Origin: Blepharisma japonicum
Lineage: Eukaryota; Ciliophora; Heterotrichea; Heterotrichida; Blepharismidae
Length of the DNA: 64,000 nt
Reading direction: 5' to 3'
NCBI GenBank assembly: GCA_949751835.1
Contig: CATKHK010000035.1
Location: forward strand, 186,001 to 250,000
Of the stretch, positions 46,787 to 60,884 are shown piece by piece; the first letter of the stretch is position 1, and every line of letters starts with the position of its first letter. The notes under the pieces are model-generated. The model was not told the DNA's origin. It was given only the letters and a program-made list of their open reading frames with translations, and ran no database searches. The translations under genes were made by a program, and so were the position numbers.

Positions 46787-47985
<1,199 letters not shown>

Positions 47986-58169: not shown

Positions 58170-60884
58170 ATGGGTGATTATTCAAAACTTGCTGAAAATC
58201 ATGAACCTGAAATACAAGCACTTGACTTATCACCCGAAACACAAGCTGAACTTAATACAGGCTCTGATGGACTTTCATCTGAAGAAGTTATTCTTCGCTT
58301 TCAAAGAGATGGCCCAAATCTCCTTCCAGAGAAGCGTGAAAAATCTTGTCTATGATACCTCGGATACCTGTGGGGTCCCATTCCATTAATGATATGAGCA
58401 GCAATTACATTTGAAATCCTAAGAGATGCATGGGTGAGCTTTTTTGTCCTTTTAATACTTCAGTTTATTAATGGAATTATGAAATGATATCAAGATCGAG
58501 GATCAAGAACTTCTATCAAGAGGCTTAAAACCAGCCTGCTCCCCCAAACTTATGTGAAGAGAGAAGGGAGATGGGAGCCAGTCGCATCAAAAGATCTCGT
58601 GATTGGAGACCGCATTAAAATTAAAATTGGAGACATTGCGCCAGCTGACTTAGTTTTGGGCGAAGGCAGCTGCGAGTTTGATTTGTCCTCTATTTCTGGA
58701 GAGAGTTTTCCAGTTAAAAAAGGAGAAGGACAAGTGGTGTATAAAGGCTCTATTTGTAAGAAAGGAGAAATGGAAGCGATTGTGATGGCTACTGGAATTA
58801 GGACGTTTTTATATAAGTCAAAGCAGAAATTAATAGTCAAAAATGAGAAAACGTCGTTTGAAAAAGCCAATTTTTGGATTTCATTGTCTTTGCTAATCGT
58901 ATCAACAATACTGGTAGGAGTTATTTTGGCTGTTGTACTTGTGAGAGGAAATGATATCTTGGAGTCATTATCTATTTGTACAGTGCTTTTAGTTGCTTCA
59001 ATTCCCATCGCTATGCAGCTGGTATGCACAACTGTTTTGGCAGTCGGAGCAAATACCATGGCATCTAAAAAAACCATTGTGACAAGATTGAATTCAATAG
59101 AAAAACTAGCAGGGATGAATTTGCTTTGCGTAAAGAAAACTGGGATGCTTACCAGAAACGATTTGACTGCTCAACAGCCTGTATTATTAAGAAGATATAC
59201 AATAGAAGATATATTTTTATCAGCTGGCTTGGCCTCAAAAAGAACTCCAGGCTCCCAAGACCCAATTGATAAATGCATCACCGAGTATGCGACACAAAAA
59301 TGCAGAATAAATTTTCAAGCTTATGATGAGCTAGAATTCATACCTTTTGACTCGAAGAAGAAAAGATGTGAAGTTTTAGTCCAAAATACCCGTACTGGAG
59401 ACAGGTTTAAATGCACCAAAGGATCTCCACAAATAATCCTAGCAATGGCTCAAGATCCGGATATAGAAAATGAAGTGACTAAACAAGTAGAAGAACTCTC
59501 TGTAAGAGGGTATAGGGCTATTGGCGTCGCAAGGACAAATAAAGATGGGAAATGGTCCATGATTGGGCTAATTCCTCTATATGACCCGCCTAGAGAAGAT
59601 GCAAAAGATTCTATTGAAAAAGCATTTCAAATGCAAATTGGTATTAAATTGCTAACTGGCGACCAAATGGCTATATCAAAAGAAACTGCCAAGCTTTTAA
59701 ATTTAGGTGACAAAATATATCATGGAGAAATTGTCTGTTTTGACACAACTGAAGAGCAAAAGGAAAATCTTGATTACGTGCTGGATCATGCAGATGGTTT
59801 TGCTGAGGTATTTCCAGAGCATAAATACATTATTGTGAAGCTTTTACAAGAAAAAGGTTACAAAGTTGGAGTCATGGGCTCAAATGTAAATGATGTAACC
59901 GCTCTTAAAAAAGCTGATGTAGGGATTGCTGTTTATGGAGCTCTTGATGCTGCTAAATCTGCTTCTGATATTATTTTAACCTACCCAGGACTTTCTGTAA
60001 TAATGGCAGCCGTTCATGAAGCTAGAAAAACGTTCCAAAGACTGAATAATTATTATACCTACAGAATAGCTTGCACTTTGCAGCTTTTGCTATTTTTTGC
60101 TACAACAATGATATTAATTAATCCTAGCAAAAAGCATTGCAACCAGGGAGATTGTGATAAAGTACCTAATACCTTTGCCTTGCCAGTGATATCTCTTGTA
60201 ATAATCACAGTTCTAAACGATGGAACTATAATCTCTATCGCTTATGATAATGTAGCAGCTAACACAAAGCCTTATAAGCTGAGTTTGTCAATGATACTGT
60301 GGAATTCGCTTATTTTAGGAATTATTCCATATGTATCTTCTGTTGCTTTATTATTAATGGCAATAGGGCATATGGATACTAATCATCCAAACAGAATCCT
60401 CAAATTCTTTGGTGTTGGAGCTTTAAATTATGGAGAAATTTTGACTATGATGTATCTCAAAGTATCACTTTCAGATTATCTCACAGTATTTGCTGCAAGA
60501 ACTTCTGATTGGTTCTGGTCGAGTAAGCCAACAAAGCTATTAATGGGTTCAGCTGCTGTTGCCATTTTGATAGCAACGCTTTTATCTGTTTATTGGTTCT
60601 TGCACTATTTTGAATGGACAGATGAGAGGAGTGATTTTCCAAGTATGAAGCCTATTGGATGGGGCACTGCAGGATTTGTGTGGGGATATAATTTTGTTTT
60701 CTTCATATTCCAAGATTTAATCAAGGTGTTTATTCACAAACAACAGCAAGTGAAATCTCAGAATGACTATTATTACCCTTACAGCGGAGTAGTTGATGAA
60801 AACTTTTTAGCATTCACTGGAAGTGTTCAAAGCAAAAATTCAATTGTAACAAAAAGATCAATGATCGCAGCAAATGAAGACTAA
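58170..60884 (+). CDS. P3A-type ATPase lacking the phosphorylated Asp (predicted pseudoenzyme)
   Basis: 904 residues, the usual length of plasma-membrane H+-ATPases, in one frame with TGA=Trp at 58353, 58395 and 58485. The fold is complete: helices M1-M2, actuator with SGES, M4 with IPIAMQ, N domain with KGSP, P domain with DPPR and LLTGDQ, and M5-M10 including LNDGT (Asp684, the M6 position used for proton binding in plant pumps). The catalytic site, however, reads CVKKTGMLT where CSDKTGTLT is expected, with Lys322 at the position of the phosphorylated Asp, and GDGVND reads GSNVND (Ser571). Such a protein cannot form the aspartyl-phosphate. With no other damage it looks maintained, perhaps as a regulator of a true pump. 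Confidence 0.9.

Follow-up and report, generated by a model that had tools for sequence, protein, structure and literature searches.

A P3A H+-ATPase-like gene of Blepharisma japonicum with an open reading frame and without its two catalytic aspartates

Described systems and the gene in the window

Kinases and proteases are groups with well-known pseudoenzymes. In what follows, the chemical roles of the phosphorylated Asp, the Mg2+-coordinating Asp, the TGES, KGAP, DPPR and TGD motifs and the N-domain residues are those generally accepted for P-type ATPases. TMEM94 and ERMA are two names for the same protein, and we know of no hexameric P3A pump in a ciliate.

Fungal and plant P3A H+-ATPases are hexamers (PMC8575881, PMC8580308), the contacts of the Pma1 hexamer have been described (PMC8580308, PMC8575881), and TMH1, TMH2 and TMH4B have been proposed as the sole moving helices in transport (PMC8575881). 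Work on Pma1 and AHA2 has assigned roles in proton transport to an M2 Asn, an M5 Arg and an M6 Asp (PMC8580308, PMC8575881). Like the protein reported here, yeast Pma1 mutants at D378 are P3A proteins without the phosphorylated Asp, and these mutants interact with the wild type (PMC3692421). Pma1-D378T binds wild-type Pma1 strongly enough to aggregate it, and suppressors of phosphorylation-site mutants map to TM2 and to the N domain (PMC3692421). However, the D378 mutants are laboratory-made, misfolded and dominant lethal, and they aggregate with the wild type instead of entering a normal oligomer (PMC3692421), whereas the present protein occurs naturally and has changed at many other positions as well.

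Outside the P3A family, TMEM94 shares a P-type-like fold with the present protein and has been argued to lack a phosphorylation cycle, but it differs in having no TGES, in keeping a candidate Asp417 and in not being a P3A protein (PMC12134183); ERMA has been called an ER Mg2+ ATPase in another paper (PMC13322241). The C. elegans protein CATP-1 is comparable as a P-type ATPase for which pump-independent functions have been suggested, although it is of the Na+/K+ type, retains Asp409 and has a pump activity that matters for one phenotype (PMC11631496). For ATP13A5, a mammalian P5B isoform, one study did not detect autophosphorylation; its P-type motifs are kept, unlike those described below, and its inactivity may stem from the assay or the cell type (PMC5837089). 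Among the papers searched, mostly outside subscription, none was matched that treats a P-type ATPase as a pseudoenzyme, and none of those listed describes, by title and abstract opening, a natural P3A pump without its Asp; this coverage falls short of proving absence.

In the window, by which we mean the whole 64,000-nt stretch of B. japonicum DNA that was analysed, an intronless P3A H+-ATPase-like gene (P0001) occupies positions 58170-60884 of the plus strand, on which all of its features given below also lie. When TGA is read as Trp, the frame is uninterrupted for 904 codons, with zero stops or frameshifts over 2712 nt, as had been claimed in an earlier note made from the letters of this DNA; three TGA codons are present (W62, W76 and W106). 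Reading TGA as Trp is supported by 15-nt introns recognized by eye in two P3A paralogues, by CCCTAACA telomere repeats in the 45.2-Mb assembly of 224 contigs (62 forward and 79 reverse matches to a four-repeat pattern, overlaps counted, with 0 for the control), and by the P3A paralogues, of which five out of eight also use TGA codons. The same 15-nt introns, CCCTAACA telomeres and TGA=Trp have been reported for Blepharisma stoltei (PMC9942806). A wrong genetic code for P0001 was therefore rejected on the open frame, the telomere repeats and the TGA codons of the paralogues.

Membership of the P3A family was assessed by model and by alignment. P0001 scored 775.7 bits against TIGR01647 (P3A H+-ATPase; cut-off 615.5 bits) and matched Arabidopsis AHA2 (5ksd) at 2e-133 over its residues 26-854, while residues 22-812 and 18-818 aligned to two fungal Pma1 proteins. 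Ten transmembrane helices are predicted from collinearity with AHA2 and Pma1, and a hydropathy scan was only roughly consistent with them. Besides the near full-length alignment and the score above the cut-off, P0001 is like AHA2 and Pma1 in its M2 Asn, M5 Arg (Pma1 R695), M6 Asp, KG[AS]P, DPPR, TGD and the Lys of PEHK; it is unlike them in having Lys for the phosphorylated Asp, Ser for the Mg2+ Asp, SGES for TGES and changes in both A-domain linkers.

The genome holds at least eight further full-length P3A genes (L010-L017), counted from the 50 of 90 candidates that were scored, and all eight have SDKTGTLTK and GDG[VA]ND. Among the same 50 of 90 matches there was no near-identical second copy with intact motifs, the next best being 54% identical. 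No relatives were found in viral contigs, and as an outgroup the genome contigs offered one distant archaeal locus, 22% identical, from a genome with no match passing the TIGR01647 cut-off. Alignment A1 comprised nine rows (P0001 and L010-L017, with L012 and L013 lacking their first exon). In the tree of these nine rows, which has no outgroup, P0001 was sister to L012/L013 with support of 99/97, flagged as a long branch and unsure in its placement; its terminal branch measured 1.06 changes per site, compared with 0.25 on the stem leading to L012/L013 and 0.01-0.04 for the branches inside that pair. L017 (G000:C8:696335-698857) was the most divergent of the active-looking P3A paralogues, with its catalytic Asp residues intact. 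Its M5-M10 region departs from the family at 25 of 92 invariant positions, one of them next to the M6 Asp, where NDGT has become NDFT; this paralogue may therefore carry a different ion.

Catalytic motifs and the remainder of the protein

At 59127-59153, CVKKTGMLT replaces CSDKTGTLT and puts Lys322 (AAG, 59133-59135) at the position of phosphorylation, and at 59877-59894, GSNVND replaces GDGVND, with Ser571 (TCA, 59880-59882) at the position of the Mg2+-coordinating Asp. Both substitutions had been claimed in the earlier note, and the codons agree with it; the alignment of the DKTGT region, run within this genome, has Asp in eight of eight paralogues, and the GDGVND Asp is likewise kept in all eight. 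Because the nucleophile Asp and the Mg2+ ligand are both gone, established P-type chemistry predicts neither a standard phosphoenzyme nor a standard cycle, and judged from its sequence P0001 is almost certainly unable to pump by the aspartyl-phosphate cycle. The third catalytic feature considered, the Glu of the TGES loop, is present: the A-domain dephosphorylation loop (58695-58706) reads SGES where all eight paralogues have TGES, with Glu178 kept and Ser in place of T176.

An assembly or base-call error at these motifs is unlikely, since several base changes would be needed at both codons and across the motifs: compared with the codons of all the paralogues, D322K takes at least two base changes and D571S three, and over both motifs together the difference from any paralogue is at least 20 of 63 nt. 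An intron artefact was also rejected by reasoning, as the removal of a 15-nt intron deletes residues and cannot restore an Asp. Of the 19 family-invariant residues in the two motifs P0001 has replaced 10, compared with 86 of the 336 outside them (Fisher p=0.015), and codons with at least two base changes number 8 of 19 in the motifs vs 31 of 336 outside (p=3e-4). Motif changes in the paralogues number 0 of 19 in each of L010, L012, L014, L015 and L016 and 2 of 21 in L017, the near-twins L011 and L013 being left out.

Everything else in the protein had been described as intact, which is an overstatement. SGES, KGSP, DPPR, TGDQ and Asp684 are all present, but SGES and KGSP depart from TGES and KGAP, and P0001 alters 96 (27%) of the 355 columns that do not vary among the eight paralogues. 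Leave-one-out controls alter 12-35 of 367-379 such columns, and the most divergent copy, L017, alters 76 of 431. The constraint on P0001 is therefore weaker than that on the other copies.

These changes are unevenly spread over the protein. At invariant positions P0001 is changed in 24 of 63 residues of the A domain, 28 of 101 of the P domain, 10 of 31 of M1-M2, 7 of 26 of M3-M4, 16 of 67 of M5-M10, 6 of 44 of the N domain, 3 of 16 of the N-terminus and 2 of 7 of the C-terminus. When the A and P domains and M1-M2 are set against the N domain and M3-M10, the counts are 62 of 195 vs 29 of 137 (p=0.034), and the N domain alone is changed less than A and P together (p=0.022). Six active paralogues, pooled without the near-twins L011 and L013, lean the other way (57 of 1227 vs 100 of 924), and the odds-ratio contrast with P0001 gives z=4.7, which is a guide value because the domain limits were set by us from the AHA2 alignment and the controls overlap. 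Taken singly, the reverse lean reached p<0.05 in three of the six (L010, L012 and L017), and L014 showed no difference. Clusters of change occur in the linkers on both sides of the A domain. The M2-to-A linker (residues 112-121, 58503-58532) carries A112S, G113R, N114T, A115S, A118R and K121T and is among the 25 highest 10-codon windows, and the A-to-M3 linker (residues 213-222, 58806-58835), with F214L, G215Y, T217S, S218K, L220K, V221L and G222I, ties for the highest.

Other parts of the protein are retained. By alignment, Asn101 of the proton path (58470-58472; AHA2 N106, Pma1 N154), Arg632 (60063-60065; Pma1 R695) and the proton acceptor/donor Asp684 in M6 (60219-60221; AHA2 D684, Pma1 D730) are kept and are identical in all nine P3A rows; R475, D498, K552 and Pro279 of M4 are kept as well. 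The C-terminal SIVTKRSM (60840-60863) compares with SIVTRRSM of L010-L013. The N domain, spanning about residues 336-472 with bounds taken via the AHA2 alignment (59175-59585), retains F393, K417, R446, R449 and D472, which we take to be ATP-binding residues. The overall pattern of change fits a protein in which the cycle would be dispensable and the static frame would still be needed.

Considering these features, we propose a plausible model for P0001. A P3A H+-ATPase duplicate, sister to the active-looking L012/L013, would have lost aspartyl phosphorylation and Mg2+ coordination; purifying selection probably retains the non-cycling product. The data show the loss of both aspartates, the intact frame, a long branch with low omega, and a release of the moving and catalytic parts relative to the static frame and the N domain. 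Beyond this, P0001 would still be folded, seated in the membrane and able to bind nucleotide, and it may partner active H+-ATPases without cycling itself, setting the number of pumping subunits or the location of the complex. A properly folded natural counterpart of the D378 mutants could serve as a non-cycling member of the ring. Given that P0001 does not pump and is under selection, a role as partner or regulator of active pumps is a real possibility, although we would not yet call it probable; the three parts jointly, namely a pseudo-pump that cannot cycle, is selected and acts as partner or regulator of active pumps, are put forward a little more tentatively still. The most specific form, in which P0001 would be a dead subunit of H+-ATPase rings, co-assembling with L012/L013 so that its copy number or nucleotide state sets the pumping subunits, is unlikely on present evidence.

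The weak change in the N domain is also what would be expected if P0001 had no contact with active pumps and were a self-standing nucleotide- or proton-sensing scaffold, whose N domain would bind ATP without Mg2+ and whose C-tail or P domain would signal. The N domain is the least changed part of the protein and differs from A and P in the test above, the putative ATP-site residues are kept, and so is the C-tail SIVTKRSM. In fungi and plants, H+-ATPases have a further role in promoting TORC1 activation, although it is described for an activated pump (PMC10817110). In this scaffold Lys322 would face the ATP gamma-phosphate, but that contact is one that we infer, and the scaffold as a whole appears rather doubtful.

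Selection, decay and the remaining alternatives

The earlier note had suggested that selection keeps this gene. Support for the suggestion came from the open frame, the rejection of omega=1, a simulation of decay and a real pseudogene as control. In a branch codon model of nine genes, omega was 0.075 on the P0001 branch, that is, about 0.08 and well under neutral, and 0.025 on the background. The model rests on paralogues because the contigs searched gave no orthologue, its longest branches come to 32 neutral changes per codon, close to the limit imposed, and the omega and lnL values are rough owing to saturated synonymous sites. Fixing omega on the P0001 branch at 1 was 26.6 lnL worse, and fixing it at 0.2 was 4.6 worse. 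A single omega for all branches was 8.8 lnL worse with the branch at the length limit and 2.6 worse with a higher limit, with a neutral phase near zero; a raised omega on the P0001 branch relative to the background is weakly supported. In a two-phase model, in which background constraint is followed by neutral evolution, the best neutral phase was about 0, and a neutral phase of 0.067 changes/nt cost 2.0 lnL.

These results bear on the alternative that P0001 is a young pseudogene, or a wholly relaxed gene caught before its first stop. Such a gene would agree with the number of altered invariant residues and with a terminal branch much longer than those of the sister pair. Neutral decay was simulated from three start genes with 60 runs each and an assumed composition of 34.5% each for A and T. 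The mean number of stops was 5.2-6.0 at 0.05/nt, 7.3-8.8 at 0.08/nt and 17.5-18.7 at 0.2/nt. From 0.05/nt upward 0 of 60 runs were stop-free, and at 0.02/nt 2-6 of 60 were, so the absence of stops, taken by itself, is compatible with a very recent loss. However, P0001 has no stop or frameshift despite its motif difference from every paralogue, a difference that includes synonymous and near-motif changes possibly older than the loss. Under a neutral phase of 0.067/nt, the Poisson probability is 4.5e-4 for at least 13 motif changes and 2.4e-8 for at least 20. Together with the rejection of omega=1 on the branch, these values argue against a young pseudogene, which we consider decidedly unlikely.

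A true H+-ATPase pseudogene fragment lies directly downstream of the intact L016 (L020 1501-1959, G000:C39:66071-66529). It is identical to L016 at 516 of 588 nt and contains three in-frame stops, one 1-base frameshift and one 3-nt gap. Its appearance is very different from that of P0001, which has neither the stops and frameshifts nor the neutral evolution of a pseudogene. P0001 is thus very probably maintained by selection and is unlikely to be a relic. With its catalytic residues lost, its frame under selection as judged from paralogues, and its fold assigned by homology, P0001 is best read as a pseudoenzyme within the P3A family.

Conservation within the membrane could also point to a passive or gated proton pathway, that is, an ATP-uncoupled leak via N101-R632-D684. 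These three residues and Pro279 of M4 are all kept, and the share of changed positions in M5-M10 is smaller than in the A domain or M1-M2. Nevertheless, alternating access depends on movement of M1, M2, M4 and the A domain, and the A-domain linkers are altered; a lasting leak would be costly to the cell, and retention of the same residues is expected for folding too, which makes the leak quite improbable. Most improbable of all is an otherwise roleless relic insulated by M2 and A-linker changes that prevent it from poisoning active pumps. In its favour, L151F in TM2 and substitutions at A165 and 169/170 are among the suppressors of dominant-lethal PMA1 mutations (PMC3692421), and our reading of the alignment places these sites at P0001 98, 112 and 116-117, within the 112-121 cluster or next to it. 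However, Gln98 as the equivalent of L151 is unchanged, insulation alone would not constrain the N domain and M3-M10, and the changes at A165 and 169/170 improve folding, not insulation (PMC3692421).

Returning to the model of a static partner of active H+-ATPases, a maintained dead P3A protein leads directly to the question of whether subunit composition controls H+-ATPase oligomers. P0001 would separate the parts of the pump needed for structure from those needed for the cycle, a separation made by evolution. If a dead ring subunit proved true, then together with four damaged relatives in the same genome, pump pseudoenzymes would form a general regulatory layer across P-type families in this ciliate.

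Other P-type relatives in the genome

A census of genes detected by PF00122 was made from 99 matches, with a coding pattern for DKTGTLT sought up to 1.5 kb downstream of each. The exact motif followed 81 of the 99, in most cases by pattern alone; genome-wide there were 88 such patterns, of which 80 were used, and the control gave 0. Among the remaining 18 matches, 17 were read and C96:19579 was left out. Ten of those read had D-K-[TS]-G, and DRSGT, DKSKT and DTRYA were found once each; two had no Asp (P0001 and L080, with NKSGALT), one was motif-less (L073) and one was truncated (L074).

Besides P0001, four P-type relatives have damaged catalytic motifs (L064, L073, L075 and L080), with frames open over the stretch examined. 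L080 (G000:C18:257900-258700, minus strand) is P4-like and open over 266 aa, and its NKSGALT has Asn for the phosphorylated Asp. L064 (1-3426, G000:C1:808582-812007) is a near full-length P4 relative that scored 641.6 bits against nearly the whole of TIGR01652, with DKSKTIT for DKTGT and GEGNSN for GDGxND. L073 (G000:C1:856500-857800) is PMCA-like at 129.8 bits, which is below the cut-off, has no DKTGT and apparently lacks the N domain. L075 (G000:C8:344000-345700, minus strand) is weakly P-type and reads DTRYALL at the motif. A KTGMLT at C30:406714 was considered as a second case like P0001 and rejected, its frame (L082) not being P-type by eye.

The window itself contains a second P-type stretch at 47183-47848, which is Ca2+-ATPase-like by eye and seems to end soon after the motif. 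Its PF00122 pieces at 47183-47368 and 47517-47795 lie in different frames and are followed by a DKTGTLT pattern at 47829-47848. An apparent full relative is located on the same contig (C35:111694, L003).
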